Shown one piece after another: positions 1 through 11,927 of a stretch of DNA of 64,000 bases (the first letter of the stretch is position 1; each line of letters begins with the position of its first letter). Location: positions 1 through 64,000 of the forward strand of contig NZ_JAKZAJ010000007.1 of the NCBI RefSeq assembly GCF_023156285.1, written 5' to 3'. The notes under the pieces were generated by a model. The model was given only the letters and a program-made list of their open reading frames with translations. It did not search any database and was not told the origin of the DNA. The DNA is from Marinobacter koreensis. Its GTDB lineage: Bacteria; Pseudomonadota; Gammaproteobacteria; Pseudomonadales; Oleiphilaceae. The translations under genes and the position numbers were made by a program.

Positions 1-55
1 CAGCGCCGATGGTAGTGTGGCATGGCCCATGCGAGAGTAGGTCATCGTCAGGCTC
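1..55 (+). rRNA. rrf: 5S ribosomal RNA, 3' part
   Basis: The first bases match the 3' half of a gammaproteobacterial 5S rRNA: the GATGGTAGTGTGG segment, then CCATGCGAGAGTAGG, ending near GTCAGGCT. The 5' half and the rest of the rRNA operon lie before the window. The exact 3' end is estimated from the conserved core. Confidence 0.9.
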
Positions 56-63
56 CTAACCCA

Positions 64-95
64 AACCCCAGCATCTCAGATGCTGGGGTTTTTTA
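64..95 (+). terminator. rRNA operon terminator
   Basis: A perfect inverted repeat, CCCCAGCATCT with AGATGCTGGGG at 66-76 and 78-88, is followed by a run of six T. It sits directly after the 5S gene, where the intrinsic terminator of an rRNA operon is expected. Bases 96-290, between it and the first gene, hold no gene. The promoter of the downstream cassette should lie there, but no convincing -35/-10 pair stands out. Confidence 0.93.
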
Positions 96-290
96 TTGCC
101 CGTCAGAAAGTTTTTCCAATTTCATGACGCTCCGCACAGTGACATTCTGTAATGAACGGTAACCTTGAAGATATAAACAAGATCGGATAAACGGCCCTTT
201 ATTGGCGAATCCGGCACTTCAGAGACACTCATCAGTCATTCAGACAAACCGCAAGATCAATAAGAAATGCGGTCGTTATGAGACGTGACT

Positions 291-1490
291 ATGAGTAAAA
301 ATGGATTTTTTTGTCTTTTCCTCGCTGTCGCGAGCGCAGGCGCTTATGGTGATTTGCGTCCGATTACCGATCATCAGATGTCCGAGGTCACCGGGCAGGC
401 CTTTGTCTCGGTGGACCGGCAATATCACCCCGATCCCAATAATTCGACAGCCTATACCCGTGTAAACCTCGGGATGGACATTGATATCCAGACCAACGTG
501 GATGTTCTGGAAATGGGGCGATACGATCGGGCCGGGGAAAAGCCTGGAAGCTCCGATGTGTTGATCAAGGATTTCGCCCTCGGGTATATCAATAACCGGG
601 CCTATTACGATGCCAACCCCAAGGCTCCTCGCACCTTCAAGCCTGACGGCAGTGCGTATGGCGAAGGGGAAATTGTGCCCTTCCACATCGATAATCCTTT
701 CTTCGAGTTTGCCTACGACGAAACCTCCCAGGAAATTGTGGGTGTGCGCCTTGGCTTCGGTAAGTCTATGGGAGTTCTGTCAGGGAAAATCGAAACTCTC
801 ACGGGTAACGTCAATGTCGACATCATTGACCACGGTGAGGGGCTCTCCAGCGCGCAGTCCAGCGGCAACCTGTTCGACCAGTTGATCGTCCTCCTGACCC
901 CGCTTCTGGAGGGCGGCAGTCCGTTGGAGACCAAGGCGAGACTCGTATACGGGGCCGACGGTGATCCGAATATTGGCTCACTGGATCCGGTTCGGGCGGA
1001 ATATATCGGCGTACCCGATGGCGAAAAGTTCGTGCTCAAGGATGCCAGTGCTTTCACCCGTTGGTCCGTCAAAAACCTCATCGGATGGGGCTCCAGTTCG
1101 GAAATCGAAGTTCCGGGGTGTTCCTTCCTCAGTTGCCCTGGTGGCGACATCTATGTGTACGCAAAGGACTGCCTGGTCCTGGGTATCGACTCCTGTTTTG
1201 ACCTCGATATCTATAACAGTTTTCCCATTGGTACGGTGGGTGAGAAAAACGGTGTCCGTGCGATCACCGGGCCTGCCGACGGAGCGTTTATCTCCTTCCA
1301 AACCAAGGATCTTGACTGGCTCAAGGATGTCAGCAAAACCGATATCACGCCGGAAGATTTCGTTCGGGCGACCGCCGGTGCCTTTTTTAACATCCCGAAC
1401 GGAGCGACCGAAGTGAACCTCAACGAGGCGCTTTATGGAACCCAGCGATATCGCACCGAGTATATTGATCGGGGCAAGGGGCTGTTCTAG
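291..1490 (+). CDS. exported protein of unknown function (cassette gene 1)
   Basis: No function is recognised. The 399-residue product begins with a signal peptide (MSKNGFFCLFLAVASAGAYG), so it is exported. Immediately after it comes L-R-P-I-T-D-H-Q-M-S-E-V-T-G-Q-A, a motif shared with the next three gene products. The rest is acidic and looks rich in beta strand, with four Cys near residues 276-305 that could form disulfides. From memory, proteins with this N-terminal motif in Marinobacter relatives are labelled DUF6160; this is unchecked. ATG at 291 is preferred, with GTG at 285 as an alternative; no strong Shine-Dalgarno decides. It is first in a four-gene overlapping run and abuts the next gene. 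Confidence 0.8.
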   Translation: MSKNGFFCLFLAVASAGAYGDLRPITDHQMSEVTGQAFVSVDRQYHPDPNNSTAYTRVNLGMDIDIQTNVDVLEMGRYDRAGEKPGSSDVLIKDFALGYINNRAYYDANPKAPRTFKPDGSAYGEGEIVPFHIDNPFFEFAYDETSQEIVGVRLGFGKSMGVLSGKIETLTGNVNVDIIDHGEGLSSAQSSGNLFDQLIVLLTPLLEGGSPLETKARLVYGADGDPNIGSLDPVRAEYIGVPDGEKFVLKDASAFTRWSVKNLIGWGSSSEIEVPGCSFLSCPGGDIYVYAKDCLVLGIDSCFDLDIYNSFPIGTVGEKNGVRAITGPADGAFISFQTKDLDWLKDVSKTDITPEDFVRATAGAFFNIPNGATEVNLNEALYGTQRYRTEYIDRGKGLF

Positions 1491-2578
1491 TGAGTAATGT
1501 CAGGGTGAGCTTACGATCAATAGTCGCTTCCGTCATTCCTGCACGCCTCCTCGCGTGTGTTCTGGTCCTGGTTTCGGTGCCAGCGGTGGCCGAACTCAAA
1601 GGGCTCTCAGAGGGAGAGATGGCCAGGATTGATGGTGCCGGATTGGGCCTGGTGTTTGAGAATTTCAAGTTTTCCCATGGAACCGACCAGCCTGATGCCA
1701 ATGGTGAACAGGCCAGGATCTTCAGGATTTCGGGAATAAAGAGTACCGATGGGCGGGACGTCGATATCACCGTGAATCACCTCTACATTTCCGGTACCGG
1801 AAGCAACTACGGGGAGAATCTCAGCCCGGTGAATCTCGGGCGCCTGGCGAACCCATGGGAAATCGATGTCGTTGACGGCAATACCATCGGAGTGCCCGAC
1901 AAGGCGGTGCTTCAATTTTCTGCGCCTTCACAGGTGGCGGCGGCCGAGGGTTATGACTGTTTCGGGGCCTCGGCATCCGCCGGTACGGGTACCTGTTCCA
2001 GTCGTCCGGCCACGGCGGACTATATTGGTGAGCGGGCGGATGTGGGTATCCAGATGAACGTCGCGGTGGGTGACGACCGTTCTGCCAACATCAATATCCA
2101 TGCAAAGAGCGCGGTTATCGATGGCAGCTACCTCCGGCTGTGGGGGGACAATAACCGTCACCAGATGGTGGGGCAGTTCAAGCTGAACTTCTATTCGCCG
2201 GAAGTTTCCATAAATGCCTGCGCTCAGGACGGAAGTTCGTGCGGGTCGCGAATCATTCTGTCCAATTTTGCTCTGGAGCTGGCGCTCGGCAATGAGCTGC
2301 AGCCCATGCTGTTTGATGTGGATGGTTCCGGCAATTTCGTTGTCGAGATTGCGGCCATTCGGCAGCCAGCCTCTGGTGAGATCGGCGCGGATGGGTTGCG
2401 AAGCAGTAGCAACGCGGAAACCTGGGATTTCTACAATTCGTACTACACCAACCCGGATTACCGCAGCAATCTGTCCATCGGCAATTTCAGTGTGGCGGAC
2501 CGTGACTTTGGTTCCGCCAGGGTTCAGGGAATGCTGATTCAGCATCTGAATATCCAGACGAAGGACCTTGCACAATGA
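1490..2578 (+). CDS. exported protein of unknown function (cassette gene 2)
   Basis: This 362-residue product is not recognised functionally. It starts at GTG sharing one base with the preceding TAG stop, so translational coupling is likely. A signal peptide spans about residues 1-34 (core LLACVLVLVSVPAVA), followed at once by L-S-E-G-E-M-A-R-I-D-G-A-G-L-G, the degenerate form of the cassette motif with Ala in place of the usual Gln. The C terminus, MLIQHLNIQTKDL, resembles the end of cassette gene 4 (IKMQNFDIKANL). The body is beta-rich, with four Cys in total in two regions (about residues 156-167 and 243-249). Most likely periplasmic or surface-exposed; no catalytic motif seen. Confidence 0.8.
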   Translation: MSNVRVSLRSIVASVIPARLLACVLVLVSVPAVAELKGLSEGEMARIDGAGLGLVFENFKFSHGTDQPDANGEQARIFRISGIKSTDGRDVDITVNHLYISGTGSNYGENLSPVNLGRLANPWEIDVVDGNTIGVPDKAVLQFSAPSQVAAAEGYDCFGASASAGTGTCSSRPATADYIGERADVGIQMNVAVGDDRSANINIHAKSAVIDGSYLRLWGDNNRHQMVGQFKLNFYSPEVSINACAQDGSSCGSRIILSNFALELALGNELQPMLFDVDGSGNFVVEIAAIRQPASGEIGADGLRSSSNAETWDFYNSYYTNPDYRSNLSIGNFSVADRDFGSARVQGMLIQHLNIQTKDLAQ

Positions 2579-3132
2579 TTCGCCACCCAGGGACAGCAAA
2601 ATACGGTTTGGCTCTCGCCATGTTGATCGCCTTGCCATCTCCGGTACGGGCGGAGTTGGCCAGTCTCGGGGATCAGGCACTCTCTGATGTGTCCGGTCAG
2701 GGCGGTATATACCTGTCCGGCGATGTCAGCATCAACGAGATGGGTGGTCCGGTCGAAAACTCTCACTTCGGACGTTGTGATGATGCCACCAGAAAGTGTG
2801 GTGCCCGGTTCGCCTGGCGGCTGAAGGAGACCGGCGGGTGGATGGTCCTTGATGATATACGCGGGAACTTTTCCTTTGAAGGACTCACCCTGCGTGTCCG
2901 GCATGTTGATTCCGGGTTTGGTGGCGACGGCGAGCTGTTTAATCGGGATGTCCTGGAGCTGGGGCTTCCGAACACCGTTCGTTTCAACGATGTCCGTTTC
3001 AAGATTGCAGCCAGCAATACGGCCCGCCCGACCGATCCGGGATTCCTCCAGACCGATATTTTCTCGGTTGAGATGCGGGGGGAGGTCGTCATGGAAGGCA
3101 ATCTTCTGGTATTCCCGACGGGTAATCCATGA
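2575..3132 (+). CDS. exported protein of unknown function (cassette gene 3)
   Basis: A short 185-residue exported protein whose ATG overlaps the previous stop as ATGA. A signal peptide ends near SPVRA, and the mature part opens with L-G-D-Q-A-L-S-D-V-S-G-Q-G-G-I-Y-L, the clearest copy of the motif that marks the cassette. Two Cys lie in a C-x6-C arrangement near residues 65-72. The remainder predicts as alternating short beta strands, with no transmembrane segment or enzyme signature. It is less than half the length of its neighbours and may be a minor partner of the large product of gene 4. Confidence 0.8.
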   Translation: MIRHPGTAKYGLALAMLIALPSPVRAELASLGDQALSDVSGQGGIYLSGDVSINEMGGPVENSHFGRCDDATRKCGARFAWRLKETGGWMVLDDIRGNFSFEGLTLRVRHVDSGFGGDGELFNRDVLELGLPNTVRFNDVRFKIAASNTARPTDPGFLQTDIFSVEMRGEVVMEGNLLVFPTGNP

Positions 3133-3155
3133 GTAGCCGGGGAGTTGGAGGACGA

Positions 3156-5534
3156 ATGACGCGCCAAACGATCGTTGCAGGTCTGATCACGCTCTGGTTG
3201 CCGCTGCCGGTGTCCGCAGACCTCAAGCGGCTGGATGATAACGCCATGGCAGACATTCAGGGCCAAAGCGGGATTACCCTTGAAATGGATGTCGGGGTAA
3301 GCGCCGATCGGGTGTCCTATTACGATGATGGGCAGGGAGTGCACCTTGAAGGATTCAGGGTTGGTTCCTCCGTGACCCCGGACGCTCCGGCGCATCACGA
3401 GATCACCCTTGATGTGGGGCAGGACGCGTCCCTCAATCTCGAGTATCTGGTGGAAGACCGCCGGATCGAGTTCGGTGACGTCCGGCTGGCTGGCGCCCCC
3501 GATGTCAGTATGGGGGGGCTTTTCCTGGATCAGAGCCTCCAGGGTACTCTGACGATGAGGTCCGGTGGCGCGACGGGGCATGGCTATACCTTTGATACCG
3601 CCTACACCATGACCGGTGGTCGTCTTGGATACCGGACCAACGGTAACGAAGTCTTCCTCGACGATATTACCCTGACGGTTGAGGCGCTCGGTACAACGCT
3701 GGATGTCGTTGGTAATACGTTGACGTTGAACTCGCCGAGCGTGGTCGGGAGCCTGGATGTGGGAGCAATTCGCTACAGCGGGAATTCGCTTAACCATGGG
3801 CGCAGCACCGACGCATCCACCGGTGCCCTGCTGCCCAGTTATGGCGGGCTGAGTCTGGACTACGATCTTTCGTCCCGCACCGACCTGACTGCCGGCGGCC
3901 GTAGCGGTGAAGGGCTCCGTATCGATCATGAAACCACCATCCATTCGGCCAGTTTTCTGTATCGGGACGATGCCCATACCCTGGCATTGCGGGACATGAG
4001 TGGCCGTTATCAGATCAGCGACCTGCGTCTGGACGTCGACCATGACTGGAAGGGGCGGCCGGCCCTGGCATTAACGTTGGGTACTCTGGAGGGCGACCTG
4101 CACATTGGCGCCATAGAAATGGGAGCCAACGGAAAGAGTGTCGGGCAGGTAAACGTCAGCTTCCTGTTCAAGGATCAGGTGTTTAACGGTCGAACCTATA
4201 CCAACGCCGTGTACCTGCAGGGCGGCGGGCATCCTGATGCTGGTCCGCAAGGCTTGCGCATGGCCGCAGAGTGGAGTCTCAGCCTCGCGGACCTGAGTTA
4301 TACCGAGGATGGCAACCGGGTCATTTTCAGTGGTTTGCAGTCCTGGGGACAGGGTGACATTACGGTCAATGTTACCCGGGATGAAACCCGAAACGGCACC
4401 CGGTTCTATGACGGGCTCAGAATTGGCTTTGATGGAGTAAAAGCCGGCTATCGGATCAACGGACTGAAAGTGGGCGATGAGAATGCACCTTTGCAGGGCG
4501 GGACCGAACTGCTCCTGGCCCTGGGCTTCTATCCGGCTTACGAGTTCGAGATGGACGGCCACATCACACTGGCACCGGGCGGTGCAACGGGAGAGGGGCT
4601 GACCGTGAATTCGGATATCCAGCTGCACAACGGCAAGGCTGCCGTGATCGCTGCGCCATACGATGAAGGCAGCGGTGACATCCCCCAGAAGGGGCTCTGG
4701 CTGACGGAGGTCGAATACGACGGCCACGTTCGGGAAATGACGCTGGATGTCACGGATGAGGGCCTGATCCTGGGAACGGGCGAATCCTGGAGCACTATGG
4801 ACATTGGCAATGTCCGGGTTGGTGATAAAAGCAGTGGCGGCAGTTTTGGTCGTCTGGTGCTTCAGAAATTCGAAAAGGGCAGCACCATGACCATTGTCCC
4901 GGGTGGCGCGGGAGATGTGTGCGCCGGGGGTGTTGGATCGAGTGCATCCGCGTGCGCGGCCTCCGGAGGAATCTGGCAGCAGCGGGGCGACGAGGGTATC
5001 ACGATCCGTCTGAAGCAATTGCTCGCACCGGCCGATGGTTCCGGCAGAAAGAATGCCATTGCCTGGGAAACCAATCGTTCTTCGGATGGATCGGGCAACG
5101 CGGTGAACGGCACCGGCACCCAGTTGGTGCTGAATGACATCTATACCAGTGACGGCGGCGATTTTGACGGCGATGGTCGAGACGACAACACTTTCGGTAT
5201 CCGCACAGATCTGTCGGTGGACGTTTACCAGACCAAGGTCGTCAAGAAAACCGACGGTGCCGACTCGCTCGGAGTCACCGGTAACCGCGGCGATGAAAAA
5301 ATCATGGATTCGTCCGTTGCGCAGGGATACCGCTATGTGGCTAATCCGACGCCGGATGAAATTCTTGATCGGCCACTCGGCTTTGCCGTCAAGGCGGAAT
5401 CCCGGTTCAAGGAGCTGTCGATCAACCGCGTTGATCTGGTGCACCCGGTGGGAGGGCCACAGACGGCAATTTACGGCATCAAGATGCAGAATTTCGATAT
5501 CAAAGCCAATCTGACGGCGACGCCGATCCCCTGA
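3156..5534 (+). CDS. large repetitive exported protein (cassette gene 4)
   Basis: A 792-residue exported protein of unknown function. ATG at 3156 is chosen because GGAGGA precedes it; ATG at 3129, overlapping the previous stop, is in frame and possible. The signal peptide ends near LPVSA and is followed by L-D-D-N-A-M-A-D-I-Q-G-Q-S-G-I-T-L. Glycine-led turns of the form G-x-G-(L/Y)-x-(hydrophobic) recur near residues 136, 247, 362 and 475, with a weaker one near 610. This gives a repeat of about 113 residues, each with beta-strand pairs around an L-x-Y core. An Asp-rich stretch near residues 668-675 (GDFDGDGRDD) resembles a calcium-binding loop. A beta-repeat surface or adhesin-like protein is plausible but unproven. 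Confidence 0.82.
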   Translation: MTRQTIVAGLITLWLPLPVSADLKRLDDNAMADIQGQSGITLEMDVGVSADRVSYYDDGQGVHLEGFRVGSSVTPDAPAHHEITLDVGQDASLNLEYLVEDRRIEFGDVRLAGAPDVSMGGLFLDQSLQGTLTMRSGGATGHGYTFDTAYTMTGGRLGYRTNGNEVFLDDITLTVEALGTTLDVVGNTLTLNSPSVVGSLDVGAIRYSGNSLNHGRSTDASTGALLPSYGGLSLDYDLSSRTDLTAGGRSGEGLRIDHETTIHSASFLYRDDAHTLALRDMSGRYQISDLRLDVDHDWKGRPALALTLGTLEGDLHIGAIEMGANGKSVGQVNVSFLFKDQVFNGRTYTNAVYLQGGGHPDAGPQGLRMAAEWSLSLADLSYTEDGNRVIFSGLQSWGQGDITVNVTRDETRNGTRFYDGLRIGFDGVKAGYRINGLKVGDENAPLQGGTELLLALGFYPAYEFEMDGHITLAPGGATGEGLTVNSDIQLHNGKAAVIAAPYDEGSGDIPQKGLWLTEVEYDGHVREMTLDVTDEGLILGTGESWSTMDIGNVRVGDKSSGGSFGRLVLQKFEKGSTMTIVPGGAGDVCAGGVGSSASACAASGGIWQQRGDEGITIRLKQLLAPADGSGRKNAIAWETNRSSDGSGNAVNGTGTQLVLNDIYTSDGGDFDGDGRDDNTFGIRTDLSVDVYQTKVVKKTDGADSLGVTGNRGDEKIMDSSVAQGYRYVANPTPDEILDRPLGFAVKAESRFKELSINRVDLVHPVGGPQTAIYGIKMQNFDIKANLTATPIP

Positions 5535-5537
5535 TCG

Positions 5538-5575
5538 AGGTCGCCACCCCAGCCCCGGTGACTTTGTATTTTCTG
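5538..5575 (+). terminator. possible weak terminator of the cassette
   Basis: AGGTCGCC and GGTGACTT can pair over an 11-base loop with two G-U pairs, followed by TTTGTATTTT. It lies just after the last cassette gene and overlaps the -35 box proposed for birA. The stem is imperfect, so this is tentative. Confidence 0.35.
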
Positions 5576-5592
5576 CCCCGCTGGTGTTTAAT
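5564..5592 (+). promoter_or_regulatory. sigma-70 promoter of birA-coaX
   Basis: TTGTAT and TTTAAT are separated by exactly 17 bases. The -10 box matches the consensus at five of six positions and the -35 at three. Transcription would start near 5600, inside an inverted repeat (5593-5619) treated separately. Confidence 0.55.
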
Positions 5593-5619
5593 CCGGCCTG
5601 ATCCTTCCTCTCAGGCCGG
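5593..5619. repeat. inverted repeat over the birA transcription start
   Basis: CCGGCCTGA and TCAGGCCGG are perfect 9-base arms around a 9-base pyrimidine-rich loop. The repeat starts one base after the proposed -10 box and ends 10 bases before the birA ATG. No T run follows, so it is not a terminator. It could be an operator or an mRNA hairpin holding the only AG-rich stretch near the start. Confidence 0.6.
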
Positions 5620-5629
5620 TGACTACTTC

Positions 5630-6595
5630 ATGAAATCCAAAGCGTTGCTCAATCTTCTCAGGGATGGCGAGGTCCATTCCGGTGAGTCCCTTGCCGAACA
5701 GCTGGGCGTCAGTCGGACTGCCGTGTGGAAGCAGGTTCGCAAGGCGATGGAGGATGGTTGCGACATTGCGACCATTCGGGGGCGAGGGTATCAGCTGCTA
5801 AGCCCGGTGGACCTGCTGGATGAGGGTGAGATCGTGCAGGGGCTCGATGCCCAGGTCCGATCGGCGGTTCACCTGTCCGTGCAGGATGAAGTCGACTCCA
5901 CTAACGCCGAGGTTTTGCGGCTGTGGCAGTCGGGTTCGCCCGGAGTGCCGGTGTGCATCGCAGATTGCCAGACGGCCGGTCGGGGGCGCCGGGGACGTGC
6001 CTGGCAGAGTCCCCGGGGTGAAAATCTCTATTTGAGCATGGGGTTGACCTTTCATGGTGGTTTTTCGGTCCTGGACGGCCTGAGCCTGGTACTGGGTGTG
6101 GGCGTCGCCAATGCTCTCGAAACGCTGGGCGCCCGGGACATTGGTCTCAAGTGGCCAAACGACATCTTTCTCCCCGGCGGCAAACTCGGCGGTATCCTCG
6201 TTGAACTTCAGGGAGAGCTTCAAGAGGGCGTAGTTCAGGTGATCGTTGGCATCGGGATCAATGTGCACATGGCGCAGGCTCCAGGTGTGGATCAACCCTG
6301 GGCAAGCCTGGATAGCACATTCCCGGGACAGGTGTGGGCCCGAAACCGGCTGGCGTCGTCATTGATCAACGCTGTCATGGATGTTGCGGCCCTGTTCGCG
6401 GAAGAGGGGTTCAAGGTCTTTCGGGCTCCCTGGCAAGCCCGGGACATCTTCGAGGGGCAACTCCTCAGGGCTCGTGAGGGGAAGCTTGAAGGGATTGGCG
6501 CGGGCATTGATGAGGCCGGCAATTACCTCCTGAAGACGAACGAAGGTACCGTCCCGGTCCGGGCCGGCGAAATCAGTCTAAGGGTGACGGAATGA
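5630..6595 (+). CDS. birA: biotin-protein ligase / biotin operon repressor BirA
   Basis: BirA makes biotinyl-AMP from biotin and ATP and attaches biotin to the acetyl-CoA carboxylase carrier protein; class II members also repress biotin genes. With ATG at 5630 it is 321 residues, the length of E. coli BirA. An N-terminal winged helix (about 5-60, LGVSRTAVWKQVRK) shows it is the DNA-binding class. The catalytic domain carries GRGRRGRAW, the biotinyl-AMP loop, and KWPNDI with its key Lys, followed by an SH3-like C-terminal domain. A longer reading from 5558 runs through the promoter hairpin and is rejected. Its stop overlaps the coaX start. Confidence 0.97.
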   Translation: MKSKALLNLLRDGEVHSGESLAEQLGVSRTAVWKQVRKAMEDGCDIATIRGRGYQLLSPVDLLDEGEIVQGLDAQVRSAVHLSVQDEVDSTNAEVLRLWQSGSPGVPVCIADCQTAGRGRRGRAWQSPRGENLYLSMGLTFHGGFSVLDGLSLVLGVGVANALETLGARDIGLKWPNDIFLPGGKLGGILVELQGELQEGVVQVIVGIGINVHMAQAPGVDQPWASLDSTFPGQVWARNRLASSLINAVMDVAALFAEEGFKVFRAPWQARDIFEGQLLRAREGKLEGIGAGIDEAGNYLLKTNEGTVPVRAGEISLRVTE

Positions 6596-7320
6596 GGTTG
6601 CTGATCGATGCCGGAAATACCCGGCTGAAGTGGCGGCTGGCAACCGGAGATGCGGTGGTTGCCGAGGGGCTGGGAGCATTTGACGATGATCTCCTGAGTG
6701 GGTTTCCCGCGACGAGTCGGGTTCGCCGGATTTCGGTGTCGACTGTGGCGGCTGAGCCCAGGCGCCAGGCTCTGACCGAATACCTTGAAGCGCGTTTCTC
6801 GATACCTGTCGCCTACCATTGGGCCGAGTCCGGTCGTGGCGGGCTGGTCAACGCCTATGAGGATCCCCGGCGCATGGGTGCCGACCGATGGCACGCGATG
6901 TACGCAGCGTGGATCGAGACACGTCGCGGGTTTGTTGTGGTGGATGCGGGCAGCGCCATCACGGTGGATTTTGTCGATGACGCCGGACGCCATATTGGCG
7001 GCTACATACTGCCCGGGGTTCAAATGATGCTGCGTAGCCTGAAAACCGATGCCGCCCGAATCCTGTTTGATGGCACGCCGGCCTCCGATTCAGCGCCTGG
7101 CACGACTACCGGAGAATGCGTCCATCATGGCGTATCCTGGATGCTGCAGTCGGCGACAGAGCGCGTGCTGACCGATGCTGAACAGATGGGTATCCAGCGT
7201 GTCATCGTGACAGGCGGTGATGCTGGTTTTCTGCTCCAGTTGGGGCTCAAGGCTGATTATCGCCCCGACCTTGTGCTTGACGGCCTCGCGGCCATCGATG
7301 CCGAGGATCTGGCGCTGTGA
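6592..7320 (+). CDS. coaX: type III pantothenate kinase
   Basis: Catalyses ATP-dependent phosphorylation of pantothenate, the first step of coenzyme A synthesis, in the cytosol. The 242-residue protein has the type III (ASKHA fold) signatures: the phosphate-binding DAGNTRLKWR at the N terminus, GADRWHAM near residue 100, and VDAGSAITVDFVD with GGYILPG near 120-145. The start overlaps the birA stop as ATGA, so the two are coupled. In E. coli this position between birA and the tRNA-tufB cluster holds the unrelated type I kinase coaA. Confidence 0.96.
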   Translation: MRLLIDAGNTRLKWRLATGDAVVAEGLGAFDDDLLSGFPATSRVRRISVSTVAAEPRRQALTEYLEARFSIPVAYHWAESGRGGLVNAYEDPRRMGADRWHAMYAAWIETRRGFVVVDAGSAITVDFVDDAGRHIGGYILPGVQMMLRSLKTDAARILFDGTPASDSAPGTTTGECVHHGVSWMLQSATERVLTDAEQMGIQRVIVTGGDAGFLLQLGLKADYRPDLVLDGLAAIDAEDLAL

Positions 7321-7973
7321 GATGGGTTGCAGCCTTCCTTTTATCTCTTATTGTGCTGGTCTGGTATCTGTCCGGTGCCTTGCAGCCACCCCGGCGCTCG
7401 ACGGAGCCGGTTACCGGAACGCTTCCGCGAGTGGCCAGCCTGAAACCTTCCTCCAAAGCCGATCCGGTGCCTGAGTCCGCCCAACCCCGGTGTGTGCGTA
7501 TTGGCTGGATTGATACACAGCAGAAGGCTGAGGCGCTGATTGCGGCGGTCCCTCTTCTGCGGCACTGGGAGCCAGTGGTGTCGGAGGTCGTGCGGGAACT
7601 GCCGCCGCTGCACTGGGTGATCATCCCTCCGCAGCCCAGGGAGATTGCTCTACGGCAGTTCCGGGACATTCAGCGTCGTGGCATTGATTCCTATCTGGTG
7701 ACCGAAGGCGAGTACCGGAATGCCATTTCACTGGGGCTGTTCGAGTCTCTGGCGTCCGCCAGAACCGTGCTTGAAGAAAAAAAACGTCAGAATCTCAATG
7801 CGGTACTAGCCAATTACGACCGAAATCAGATAAGCTACGCGCTCGATTTTGAGGCGGATCCGGATCTCGTAGAAGAGACGGTTCAGGCAGTATCCTCGGA
7901 ATCTGGTCGCGATTTCGATTTCGTCGAAATTCACCCTTGCGAGGGTGTTGCAACGCCAGAAAAAAATCCGTAG
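7317..7973 (+). CDS. SPOR-domain inner-membrane protein
   Basis: A 218-residue protein with one N-terminal transmembrane segment (about residues 3-20), a Pro/Ser-rich linker, and a C-terminal SPOR-like domain (about 125-200, with QFRDIQRRGIDSYLV and SLGLFESLASARTV). SPOR domains bind denuded glycan strands of septal peptidoglycan, so a periplasmic, possibly division-linked role is likely. It starts at GTG overlapping the coaX stop (GTGA). The promoter of the downstream tRNA operon lies inside its last codons. Exact function is unknown. Confidence 0.85.
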   Translation: MRWVAAFLLSLIVLVWYLSGALQPPRRSTEPVTGTLPRVASLKPSSKADPVPESAQPRCVRIGWIDTQQKAEALIAAVPLLRHWEPVVSEVVRELPPLHWVIIPPQPREIALRQFRDIQRRGIDSYLVTEGEYRNAISLGLFESLASARTVLEEKKRQNLNAVLANYDRNQISYALDFEADPDLVEETVQAVSSESGRDFDFVEIHPCEGVATPEKNP

Positions 7974-7976
7974 TAT
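7948..7976 (+). promoter_or_regulatory. sigma-70 promoter of the tRNA-tufB operon
   Basis: TTGCAA and TAGTAT are separated by exactly 17 bases, including an A-rich stretch. A GC-rich discriminator (ACCGCCCTCG) lies between the -10 and the predicted start near 7983. Such discriminators are typical of stringently controlled stable-RNA promoters. The site overlaps the end of the SPOR gene. Confidence 0.75.
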
Positions 7977-8004
7977 ACCGCCCTCGCTGACGAGGCGAAT
8001 GTGA

Positions 8005-8080
8005 GCTGGCGTAGCTCAGTTGGTAGAGCAGCTGACTTGTAATCAGCAGGTCGGGGGTTCGATTCCGTCCGCCAGCTCCA
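8005..8080 (+). tRNA. tRNA-Thr (anticodon TGT)
   Basis: A 76-base cloverleaf: acceptor GCTGGCG pairs with CGCCAGC (one G-U-type variation allowed), D-arm AGCTCAGTTGGTAGAGC, anticodon loop CTTGTAA with TGT, T-arm GGGGGTTCGATTCC, and encoded CCA. It is first in a Thr-Tyr-Gly-Thr-tuf order identical to E. coli thrU-tyrU-glyT-thrT-tufB. Confidence 0.97.
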
Positions 8081-8121
8081 CTTTTAGTTTTGAGCAAATT
8101 CGCGGTTTGCGGATTTGTGCG

Positions 8122-8206
8122 GGAGGGGTTCCCGAGTGGCCAAAGGGATCAGACTGTAAATCTGACGGCATCGCCTTCGCAGGTTCGAATCCTGCCCCCT
8201 CCACCA
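8122..8206 (+). tRNA. tRNA-Tyr (anticodon GTA)
   Basis: An 85-base tRNA with the long variable arm typical of bacterial tRNA-Tyr. Acceptor GGAGGGG pairs with CCCCTCC, the anticodon loop holds GTA, the T-loop GTTCGAATC is present, and CCA is encoded. Confidence 0.97.
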
Positions 8207-8216
8207 CTAATTGCTC

Positions 8217-8291
<75 letters not shown>

Positions 8292-8303
8292 ATTTGTTTG
8301 AAT

Positions 8304-8379
8304 GCTCATGTAGCTCAGTTGGTAGAGCACACCCTTGGTAAGGGTGAGGTCGGCGGTTCAAATCCGCCCATGAGCTCCA
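8304..8379 (+). tRNA. tRNA-Thr (anticodon GGT)
   Basis: A 76-base tRNA with acceptor GCTCATG pairing CATGAGC, anticodon loop TTGGTAA carrying GGT, T-loop GTTCAAATC, and encoded CCA. It ends 50 bases before the tufB start and is probably processed from the same transcript. Confidence 0.97.
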
Positions 8380-8429
8380 TTTTTATCCGGTCAACGTTAC
8401 GGTCCAGGTTGATTAGGGGAGTTGGTCAA

Positions 8430-9626
8430 ATGTCCAAAGAAAAATTTGAGCGTAGTAAACCGCACGTAAACGTGGGCACCATTGGTCACGTTGACCATGG
8501 TAAGACCACTCTGACGGCGGCACTGACCCGTGTATGTCACGAAGTGTGGGGTACAGGTTCTGCGAGTGCGTTTGACCAGATCGATAACGCACCGGAAGAG
8601 AAGGCGCGTGGTATCACCATCGCGACTTCCCACGTTGAGTACGATTCTCCGACCCGTCACTACGCCCACGTAGACTGCCCGGGCCACGCTGACTATGTGA
8701 AGAACATGATCACTGGTGCGGCGCAGATGGACGGCGCGATCCTGGTTTGCTCCGCAGCTGACGGCCCCATGCCGCAGACTCGCGAGCACATCCTGCTGTC
8801 CCGTCAGGTTGGCGTACCTTACATCGTTGTGTTCCTGAACAAGGCCGACATGGTCGACGACGAAGAGCTGCTGGAACTGGTCGAGATGGAAGTTCGCGAC
8901 CTGCTGAGCCAGTACGACTTCCCGGGCGACGACACTCCGATCATTACCGGTTCTGCGCTGATGGCGCTGGAAGGTAAGGACGACAACGAAATGGGTACTA
9001 CCGCTGTGAAGAAGCTGGTAGAAGCCCTGGACGACTACATCCCTGAGCCGGAGCGTGCGATCGATCAGCCGTTCCTGATGCCGATTGAGGACGTTTTCTC
9101 CATTTCCGGTCGTGGTACGGTTGTAACCGGTCGTGTTGAGCGTGGCATCATCAAGGTTGGTGACGAAGTGGAGATTGTTGGTATCAAGGATACCGTCAAG
9201 ACCACTTGTACCGGTGTTGAGATGTTCCGCAAGCTGCTGGACGAAGGCCGTGCTGGTGAGAACGTTGGCGTTCTGCTGCGTGGTACCAAGCGTGACGACG
9301 TTGAGCGTGGTCAGGTTCTGGCGGTTCCGGGCTCCATCACTCCGCACACCAAGTTCGAGTGCGAAGTGTACGTACTGAGCAAGGAAGAAGGCGGTCGTCA
9401 TACTCCGTTCTTCAAGGGCTACCGTCCGCAGTTCTACTTCCGTACCACTGACGTGACTGGCTCTTGCGAGCTGCCGGAAGGCGTTGAGATGGTAATGCCG
9501 GGTGACAACGTGAAGATGAGTGTTACCCTGATCGCTCCGATCGCCATGGAAGATGGTCTGCGCTTCGCGATTCGCGAAGGCGGCCGTACCGTTGGTGCCG
9601 GCGTGGTCTCCAAGATCATCGAGTGA
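8430..9626 (+). CDS. tufB: elongation factor Tu (copy B)
   Basis: EF-Tu carries aminoacyl-tRNA to the ribosomal A site as a GTP complex. The 398-residue protein has the G-domain motifs GHVDHGKT (about 19-26), DCPGHAD and NKAD, then two beta-barrel domains. The start is ATG at 8430; a longer in-frame reading from 8259 only translates the tRNA genes and is rejected. It lies in the tRNA-tufB-trpT-secE order. The protein is identical to the product at 24995, with only a handful of silent base differences plus different start and stop codons. Its TGA stop lies within an inverted repeat at 9618-9643. Confidence 0.98.
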
Positions 9627-9643
9627 CCCCAGGGTCACTCGAT
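9618..9643. repeat. inverted repeat spanning the tufB stop codon
   Basis: ATCGAGTGACCC and GGGTCACTCGAT are perfect 12-base arms separated by CA. The TGA stop lies in the left arm. No T run follows. A role as a 3'-end or processing hairpin between tufB and tRNA-Trp is likely. Confidence 0.7.
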
Positions 9644-9670
9644 TGTAGTTGCACTGAGTTGTTTCGGTGC

Positions 9671-9746
<76 letters not shown>

Positions 9747-9779
9747 TTTTTTAACATCCGGATACATAAGCTGATTCCT

Positions 9780-10148
9780 ATGGAGTCAAAAGCCGTTCAG
9801 TCAGCCAGCCGTTTCGATATTGCGAAGTGGCTGGTTGTTTTTGTTCTGATTGCCGCCGGTGTGGTGGGTAATCAGTATTTCAGTGCCGAATCTCTTCTTT
9901 ATCGTGTTCTGGCTCTCGTAGGTCTCGGTATTGTGGCGGCTCTCGTTGCACTGCAGACAGGCCGTGGGCGTCGATTTGCGACACTGCTGAAAGAGGCACG
10001 GGTCGAAATCCGGAAGGTGGTATGGCCCACCCGGCCAGAGCTCGTCCAGACAACGTTGATTGTCGTGGTTTTTGTGCTCGTGGTTGCGCTGATTTTGTGG
10101 GGTATGGATTCCCTGATCAGTTGGTTGGTCGCCGGGTTTATTGGTTAA
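9780..10148 (+). CDS. secE: preprotein translocase subunit SecE
   Basis: SecE clamps SecY in the SecYEG channel of the inner membrane. The 122-residue product has three transmembrane segments (about 12-32, 37-55 and 90-115), as in the long gammaproteobacterial form. It also has the conserved amphipathic stretch EARVEIRKVVWPTRPE before the last helix. ATG at 9780 is used; an upstream in-frame ATG (9717) lies inside tRNA-Trp and is rejected. nusG follows after 12 bases. Confidence 0.96.
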   Translation: MESKAVQSASRFDIAKWLVVFVLIAAGVVGNQYFSAESLLYRVLALVGLGIVAALVALQTGRGRRFATLLKEARVEIRKVVWPTRPELVQTTLIVVVFVLVVALILWGMDSLISWLVAGFIG

Positions 10149-10160
10149 CAGGAGTGGGCA

Positions 10161-10694
10161 ATGGCTAAGCGCTGGTACGTGGTTCATGCGTATTCTGGCT
10201 TTGAGAAGCACGTAATGCGCACTCTGAAGGAGCGCGTTGCGCTCAACGGCATGGAAGACAAGTTCGGCGAGATCCTGGTCCCGACCGAAGAAGTTGTCGA
10301 AATGCGCGATGGCAAAAAGCGCAAGAGTGAGCGCAAGTTCTATCCGGGATACGTACTCGTCCAGATGGAAATGGACGATGGTACATGGCACCTTGTGAAG
10401 AATACCCCGCGGGTTCTTGGCTTTATCGGCGGTACCAAGGATAAGCCTGCGCCGATTACCGAACGTGAGGCTGAGGCCATTCTCCGTCGTGTTGAGAGTG
10501 GTGCCGATAAGCCCAAGCCGAAAACCCTGTTCGAGCCGGGTGAGATTGTTCGGGTCGTTGAAGGGCCGTTCGCGGACTTCAATGGCGTCGTGGAAGAAGT
10601 CGACTACGACAAGAGTCGAGTCAAGGTGGCCGTTCTGATTTTCGGTCGCTCAACTCCGGTGGAGCTGGAGTTCGGGCAGGTCGAGAAAGACTGA
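10161..10694 (+). CDS. nusG: transcription termination/antitermination factor NusG
   Basis: NusG binds the RNA polymerase clamp, suppresses pausing, aids Rho and links polymerase to ribosomal S10. The 177-residue protein has the NGN domain (about 1-115, opening [16 protein letters not shown]) and a C-terminal KOW domain (from [21 protein letters not shown]). It is in the usual secE-nusG pair, which is followed by a hairpin terminator before rplK. Confidence 0.98.
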
Positions 10695-10711
10695 CGGGCC
10701 ATCAAAACCAG

Positions 10712-10746
10712 GAAAGCTCGCGCGCTCAGGCGACGCGGGCTTTTTG
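10712..10746 (+). terminator. terminator between nusG and rplK
   Basis: AAAGC-T-CGCG pairs with CGCG-G-GCTTT across an 11-base loop and runs directly into TTTTT. It should reduce read-through from the secE-nusG unit into rplK. No clear rplK promoter was found in 10747-10795. Confidence 0.7.
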
Positions 10747-10795
10747 TGTCTGAGTTGGGGAGCCGAGAGGCGTTCGAACCCATAGGAGATATATC

Positions 10796-11227
10796 ATGGC
10801 AAAGAAGATCGAAGCGTATATCAAGCTTCAGGTTGCTGCCGGACAGGCCAACCCGAGTCCCCCCGTTGGTCCGGCCCTCGGTCAGCGTGGTGTTAATATC
10901 ATGGAATTCTGCAAGGCGTTCAATGCCCAGACACAGGGCATGGAGCCGGGTCTGCCGATTCCGACTGTTATCACTGTGTACAGTGATCGCAGCTTTACCT
11001 TCATTACCAAGACTCCGCCTGCACCGGTTCTGCTGAAGAAAGCGGCCGGTATCAAGAGCGGTTCTGGTCGTCCGAACACCGACAAGGTTGGCACGGTCAC
11101 CCGTGAGCAGCTGGAAGAGATCGCGAAGACCAAGGAGCCGGATCTGACTGCAGCCGATATGGATGCAGCTGTTCGTACCATTGCCGGAACTGCCCGCAGT
11201 ATGGGCCTGAACGTGGAGGGCCTCTGA
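10796..11227 (+). CDS. rplK: 50S ribosomal protein L11
   Basis: L11 binds 23S rRNA at the GTPase-associated centre and is needed for RelA sensing. The 143-residue protein has the N-terminal proline-rich segment [16 protein letters not shown], the thiostrepton-site region, and the C-terminal rRNA-binding domain. A good Shine-Dalgarno (AGGAGA) precedes ATG. rplA follows after one base, and in E. coli L1 controls this pair by feedback. Confidence 0.98.
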
Positions 11228-11228
11228 A

Positions 11229-11927
11229 ATGGCAAAGTTGAGCAAGCGTCAGAAGCTGATTCGTGAAAAGGTTGACTCCACTCGCGCCTATTCCGTTGAC
11301 GAAGCGGTTGCGCTGTTGGCCGAACTGGGCCAGAGCGTGAAGTTCAAGGAATCTGTGGATGTTGCCGTGAACCTGGGCGTCGATGCCCGGAAATCCGATC
11401 AGGTTGTTCGGAGCAGCACCGTGCTGCCGCACGGCACTGGTAAAAGCGTTCGTGTCGCCGTCTTTACTCAGGGTGCGAACGCAGAGAAGGCCACAGCGGC
11501 CGGTGCGGACATCGTTGGTATGGATGATCTCGCCGACGAGGTCAAAAAGGGCAACATGGATTTCGATGTGGTTATCGCCACTCCGGACGCGATGCGAGTC
11601 GTTGGTCAGCTGGGTCAGATTCTTGGTCCTCGTGGCCTGATGCCTAACCCGAAAGTGGGTACGGTGACTCCGGATGTCGAAACCGCTGTGAAAAACGCGA
11701 AAGCGGGTCAGGTGCGCTACCGGACTGATAAGAACGGTATTATCCACGCACCGCTGGGTAACATTGAATTCTCTGCACAGAACATCAAGGAAAACCTTGA
11801 AGCTCTAGTTGCGGATCTGAAAAAGGCCAAGCCTGCGTCATCGAAAGGTGTGTATCTCAAGAAGATCACCATTTCTTCGACCATGGGTCCTGGCCTGACT
11901 ATCGATCAGAGCGGTCTCGCTATCTGA
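11229..11927 (+). CDS. rplA: 50S ribosomal protein L1
   Basis: L1 forms the mobile stalk at the ribosomal E site and represses its own operon in related bacteria. At 232 residues it is close to E. coli L1 (234). It shows the conserved [26 protein letters not shown] and the C-terminal [17 protein letters not shown] segment. It is separated from rplJ by a 223-base leader. Confidence 0.98.

Follow-up and report, generated by a model that had tools for sequence, protein, structure and literature searches.

What do the proteins encoded between an rRNA operon and birA in Marinobacter koreensis do, and what connects the four overlapping genes that fill this interval? The locus lies in the stretch of 64,000 nucleotides analysed here (the window), which is the start of contig C7 in a genome of 3.78 Mb. 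The favoured reading, given a probability of roughly 0.7, is that all four cassette proteins are clients of a Fil-type export system related to Fap.

A conserved but accessory cassette between rRNA and birA

The cassette was described in a preliminary description as four overlapping genes at 291-5534, and these are real: all open frames lie on the forward strand (Table 1) and meet at the junctions TAGTG (1488-1492) and twice ATGA (2575 and 3129), giving overlaps of one base between p1 and p2 and of four bases between p2 and p3 and between p3 and p4. Signal peptides were likewise recognised by eye on all four proteins, each with a basic start, a hydrophobic core and an A-x-A-like site before D/E-L. 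The position directly after an rRNA operon terminator is borne out by a terminator with a 13-bp stem and by the 5S rRNA 3' end preceding it, a segment that also lies upstream of birA in relatives with 86-97% identity. Rfam made no call on this truncated piece at 1-59, and it found no rRNA at the gathering threshold in positions 1-9000 of a related locus (L105), where the 5S tail matches over 23 bases, so that the evidence for the rRNA link is the terminator together with the 5S tail. A search for promoter consensus sequences on the forward strand of the locus found none.

Table 1. Features of the cassette and its flanks (positions in the window)
Feature	Position	Strand	Description
5S rRNA 3' end	1-59 (about)	+	from sequence; end of the upstream rRNA operon; contig begins here
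rRNA-operon intrinsic terminator	63-91	+	13-bp stem, T tail
p1	291-1490	+	exported protein, 399 aa from ATG 291; 401 aa from GTG 285
p1 leader	351-398	+	DLRPITDHQMSEVTGQ; 16 aa behind putative signal peptidase site
p2	1490-2578	+	exported protein, 362 aa
p2 leader	1592-1639	+	ELKGLSEGEMARIDGA; nearest to canonical double-glycine: L-12, S-11, E-8, M-7, I-4, G-2, A-1
p3	2575-3132	+	exported protein, 185 aa
p3 leader	2653-2700	+	ELASLGDQALSDVSGQ; leader alignment
p4	3129-5534	+	exported protein, 801 aa
p4 leader	3219-3266	+	DLKRLDDNAMADIQGQ; leader alignment, AlphaFold2 model
birA	5630-6595	+	downstream neighbour, outside the system; coaX also follows the cassette

Among named relatives, Marinobacter santoriniensis comes closest by p4 (97%). 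Public genomes scanned for p4 relatives yielded 60 loci, almost all from Marinobacter with the addition of Tamilnaduibacter and Mangrovitalea; distant p4 relatives with 32-35% identity belong to uncultured Saccharospirillaceae, Bermanella and Oceanospirillaceae. Because orthologues of the whole set, or of most of it, occur in these 60 loci, with birA next in 56, the arrangement is not a product of chance, and comparison of the rRNA-birA interval confirms a conserved neighbourhood. Four loci lie away from birA: the three distant loci and a second copy of the cassette (L106). This copy is a diverged whole cassette in Marinobacter sp. PBR18_bin50, a genome bin that also contains a cassette between rRNA and birA (L103) and may be mixed. 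In cassette-free Marinobacter the rRNA is followed directly by birA, at about 110-360 bp from the 5S rRNA end, which leaves the earlier comparison with murB of E. coli beside the point.

Export of the proteins, coordinated synthesis and the conserved order p1-p2-p3-p4 are supported. The further suggestion of an obligate multi-protein system is supported only in part, and not as an obligate stand-alone system, since related cassettes lacking p1 occur (L112, G042) and some Marinobacter that possess the FilC channel described below have no cassette though close relatives have it. Several FilC-positive genomes that lack a p4 relative stand next to p4-bearing ones on a rough birA-coaX tree (G013/G023, G027/G015, G028/G008), and in G004 the cassette is decayed; this distribution suggests repeated loss, on a tree that is a sketch with weak nodes. 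Being widespread in Marinobacter yet missing from several FilC-positive genomes, the cassette is accessory.

A shared leader on dissimilar bodies

Behind the Sec signal peptide, all four proteins carry the 16-residue pattern [DE]L-x-x-[LIM]-x-[DE]-x-x-[LM]-x-x-[VI]-x-G-[QA]. At the N-terminus, p1 (28.2 bits), p3 (28.3) and p4 (62.6) pass the 27-bit cut-off of Pfam DUF6160 (PF19657); p2, with 15.2 bits, falls below it and matches a leader profile with an E-value of 4.4e-8, a profile that itself included p2-type leaders. The earlier statement that the proteins have no recognised function is accurate for function but not for family, since DUF6160 covers members of the cassette; this family has no assigned function, and its common part is read here as an export or processing tag. 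When five family pairs were compared using hhalign, four alignments did not extend past the signal peptide and the 20-30 residues after it, and the fifth (p2-p3) was longer, weak and, beyond the leader, probably spurious; convincing homology among p1-p4 beyond signal peptide and leader was not detected in these five pairs.

Among 119 leaders, position -12 is L, I, M or V, position -10 is D or E and position -7 is L or M in every case, followed in constancy by V or I at -4 (117/119), a small residue (A, G or S) at -17 (115/119) and G at -2 (113/119). The small residues at -17 indicate that the leader spans 16 residues from the putative signal-peptidase site. This is the register of double-glycine leaders, which is defined by hydrophobic -12, -7 and -4 and by G at -2. 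In ABC exporters, the C39 peptidase domain reads L(-12)xxxE(-8)L(-7) together with a hydrophobic residue at -4; its hydrophobic groove takes up residues -10 to -4 in the form of a short helix, and processing is impaired by charged residues at -4 or -7 and by most substitutions at -12 (PMC6363468, PMC6959990). In the AlphaFold2 models of p1 and p4, a short low-confidence helix is likewise predicted at -10 to -6 before the folded body (residues 37-41 in p4). The p2 leader, LSEGEMARIDGA, is close to a canonical double-glycine leader, and E at -8 is dominant only in leaders of the p2 type; a gap-shifted alignment of the p2 leader is possible, which counts against the client reading. At -1, where double-glycine leaders have G, A or S, Q is found in p1, p3 and p4 and A in p2, with Q in 89 of the 119 leaders.

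The leader is also present on five further proteins of the same genome. These lie at C3:557-576 kb (L046), C3:196 kb (L047), C1:230 kb (L048) and C1:639 kb (L049), unlinked to the fil genes; the L049 protein resembles p1 in its N-terminal part, and a paralogue at C3:567 kb has a leader with GG at its end. Twenty leaders from five other genomes (G178, G277, G052, G243 and G042) all have Ala at -17 and are followed by mostly different sequence after G-Q; the tagged proteins, 97-823 aa long, have nothing obvious in common past this point, except for the p2-p4 relatives of G042. In a further genome, DUF6160 was seen on neighbouring frames, one of them inside an open frame of 2071 residues (G038:C177:1857-2568).

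Among the bodies, the p1 model is beta-rich (pLDDT 70), with no convincing relative in a fold search (best Z 2.7); p3 has two invariant cysteines after the leader (C68, C75); and p4 is predicted as an extended antiparallel beta-sheet body (pLDDT 85.7, pTM 0.81), for which a PDB sequence search gave no match and a fold search gave generic beta-sheet and barrel matches with no clear structural relative. PADLOC assigned no defence family. VIA-align matched p4 to outer-membrane barrels with Z 9-14, as expected if p4, and p1, were integral outer-membrane beta-barrels whose leader has no role in export. These are local beta-sheet matches with an rmsd of 8-19 A and a Foldseek TM below 0.2, the alternation of inward and outward residues is no more than moderate, p4 lacks a terminal aromatic residue and the association with Fil would be left unexplained, so that the barrel explanation is very improbable. 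A role as amyloid subunits was rejected on composition, the proteins being rich in G and D, with N+Q at 7-12% (3.9% N and 3.3% Q in p4), rather than Asn/Gln-rich.

The FilB/FilC machine and the distribution of the tag

A candidate partner for the leader is encoded on a separate contig, where filB, filC and filD are adjacent at C1:930.9-934.5 kb (filB and filC at C1:930.9-932.8 kb). FilB is a predicted exported C39 peptidase (Pfam C39, E 8.6e-20) that keeps the active-site Q, C, H and D conserved across seven aligned FilB/FapD-like sequences. FilC, a FapF-like outer-membrane channel, matches NF050079 (E 1.8e-102) and FapF (E 1.8e-19), and FilD is identified with an E-value of 1.8e-166. The genome thus contains a C39 peptidase with an N-terminal export signal adjoining a FapF-like channel; the scores of FilB and FilC lie below the curated NCBI cut-offs, which counts against the client reading.

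Tag and machine occur together. DUF6160 is present in all 33 of 58 relatives with a strong FilC match and in none of the other 25 (Fisher 6e-17, with genomes treated as independent and phylogeny ignored), and FilC-negative Marinobacter occupy at least two separate places on the rough birA-coaX tree. In a class-wide sample of 276 genomes, five of six with strong FilC had DUF6160, compared with none of 270 others, and none of 24 genomes with only weaker, FapF-like matches carried it. Among more than 300 genomes examined, the tag is found only alongside FilB/FilC machinery. A leader-only profile, partly built from sequences of three of the genomes it was run on and applied at E 0.05, gave no match in six FilC-negative Marinobacter; of eight genomes with strong FilC, seven yielded 3-13 matching proteins each. 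The exception, G065, has FilB- and FilC-like genes and no leader-profile match in its genome, which counts against the client reading; here the machine may be a variant, or its clients may bear another tag. In this genome an OmpA-like gene separates the FilB- and FilC-like genes (L121, G065:C9). Direct linkage is also observed: tagged genes stand upstream of filB-C-D at L117, and at L118 a tagged gene is followed by one gene and then filB-C-D. The intervening gene (L118, 1766-2482) encodes a 238-aa exported protein with a divergent leader-like start, LEYLSDEELSQHDGYTS.

A FapD/FapF-type locus was considered as an alternative partner and rejected; two Marinobacter with only weak FapD/FapF-like matches (G026, G029) lack DUF6160, so that the FilB/FilC pair is preferred. 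M. koreensis has a second C39 locus (L053, G000:C2:110000-129000; positions 7954-11885) with genes for a FapF-like channel (NF058560, E 6e-46), a FapD-like peptidase (E 2.4e-41) and an S/T/N-rich protein, and for two further proteins, one of 256 aa with the leader PLDDAELAQLRGG and one of 133 aa with MSSDQLEHSSGK. This is possibly a Fap-like locus, with its GG-leader protein as a candidate FapD substrate.

Conserved gene order and overlaps would also be expected if p1-p4 formed one fixed envelope complex, for example a pilus, an adhesin or a lipid-handling assembly, joined via the N-terminal segment and co-inherited with the machine as a fil regulon. The large antiparallel sheet of p4, weakly similar to barrels and lipoprotein sheets, and the raised level of Acinetobacter FilF in pellicles (PMC3203104) are compatible with such a complex. 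However, the leader occurs on many unlinked and unrelated proteins, reaching 13 tagged, otherwise unrelated proteins per genome in distant relatives, the cassette has variants and losses, and the register matches that of a peptidase leader, not an interface; a fixed complex is therefore improbable. A tag that keeps its position and register, sits on unrelated bodies and occurs with one peptidase-channel pair only is best accounted for as the signal that hands clients over to that pair.

A proposed export route and its place among known systems

In Pseudomonas Fap (FapA-FapF), proteins exported by Sec meet a periplasmic C39 peptidase, FapD, and a trimeric outer-membrane channel, FapF, which are related to FilB and FilC. 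FapD acts in the periplasm and needs its catalytic cysteine for secretion (PMC5557850). Its substrate has been described as undetermined (PMC5557850, PMC6173800) in the open-access literature, which may miss later work; action on an alternative sequence was considered possible by its authors (PMC5557850), and FapC had no known targeting sequence (PMC6173800). On these grounds the leader is proposed to be bound by FilB, with probable cleavage after G-Q/G-A, and the bodies to leave through FilC.

As judged from sequence, each cassette protein would cross the inner membrane via Sec and lose its signal peptide at the A/G-D/E junction. The new N-terminus would be the 16-residue double-glycine-like leader, whose side chains at -12, -7 and -4 may dock in the groove of FilB in the periplasm. 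FilB would then cleave after G-Q or G-A, which is the least certain step. Finally, homology and co-occurrence suggest that the bodies could pass or assemble through FilC, together with FilD and neighbouring proteins, to reach the surface. For p4 this counts against the client reading, as the protein would need to stay unfolded through a FapF-type pore despite its confident beta model.

The cleavage step may be questioned, because the C39 cleft is reported to be narrow and specific for double glycine (PMC6959990) and Q at -1 is unfavourable for it, so that FilB may bind the leader without cutting. The leader would then stay on the protein and serve FilB, or the periplasmic part of FilC, for docking or as a chaperone site. 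C39-like domains that act only as chaperones are known (PMC6173800), and residues just past the leader are conserved within families (A-F in p1, G-G-I-Y-L in p3, S-G-I-T in p4), as if leader and body were one folded unit. This version is nevertheless unlikely, given the retained active-site residues of FilB, the requirement for the FapD catalytic cysteine (PMC5557850) and the end of conservation at G-Q in distant genomes.

Among the closest known systems is Acinetobacter Fil (FilA-FilF; NCBIfam NF050077-NF050080, 'putative pilus system'), which the cassette resembles in its leader-bearing, FilA-like proteins and in the presence of FilB (C39), FilC (FapF-like) and FilD (OmpP1/FadL-type) in its genome. 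Against FilA (NF050077, cut-off 220 bits), p4 scores 19.3 and p3 12.3 bits over the N-terminal part only, and p1 and p2 have no match; the cassette also lies apart from filBCD, between rRNA and birA. In comparison to Fap, the cassette proteins lack the Asn/Gln-rich amyloid repeats of the fibre subunits. Double-glycine leaders of bacteriocins, ComC, LahA and CtA share the register L-12, E/A-8, L/M-7, V/I-4 and G-2 and a C39 partner. Unlike these clients of peptidase-containing ABC exporters, the cassette leader follows a Sec signal, would be recognised in the periplasm, usually ends in Q at -1, precedes large protein cargo and is associated with no ABC exporter.

The leader is proposed to be a reusable sorting tag on unrelated bodies, with the rRNA-birA cassette as one cargo set for a machine encoded elsewhere. 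Because the tag follows FilB/FilC, it provides a specific set of candidate substrates, opens the way to cataloguing clients by sequence and suggests what part of DUF6160 may do; the G-Q/G-A leader is a testable candidate signal for FapD-related peptidases. The same question applies to Acinetobacter, which has a Fil operon and whose FilF is being studied as a surface antigen. More broadly, and with somewhat better than even odds, the N-termini of DUF6160 and FilA proteins may constitute a general two-step signal, in which Sec export is followed by a GQ leader read by the stand-alone periplasmic C39 peptidase FilB, committing many unrelated proteins to a Fap-type channel. If so, the system would amount to a secretion pathway whose cargo tag is portable, extending beyond a single amyloid or pilus operon.
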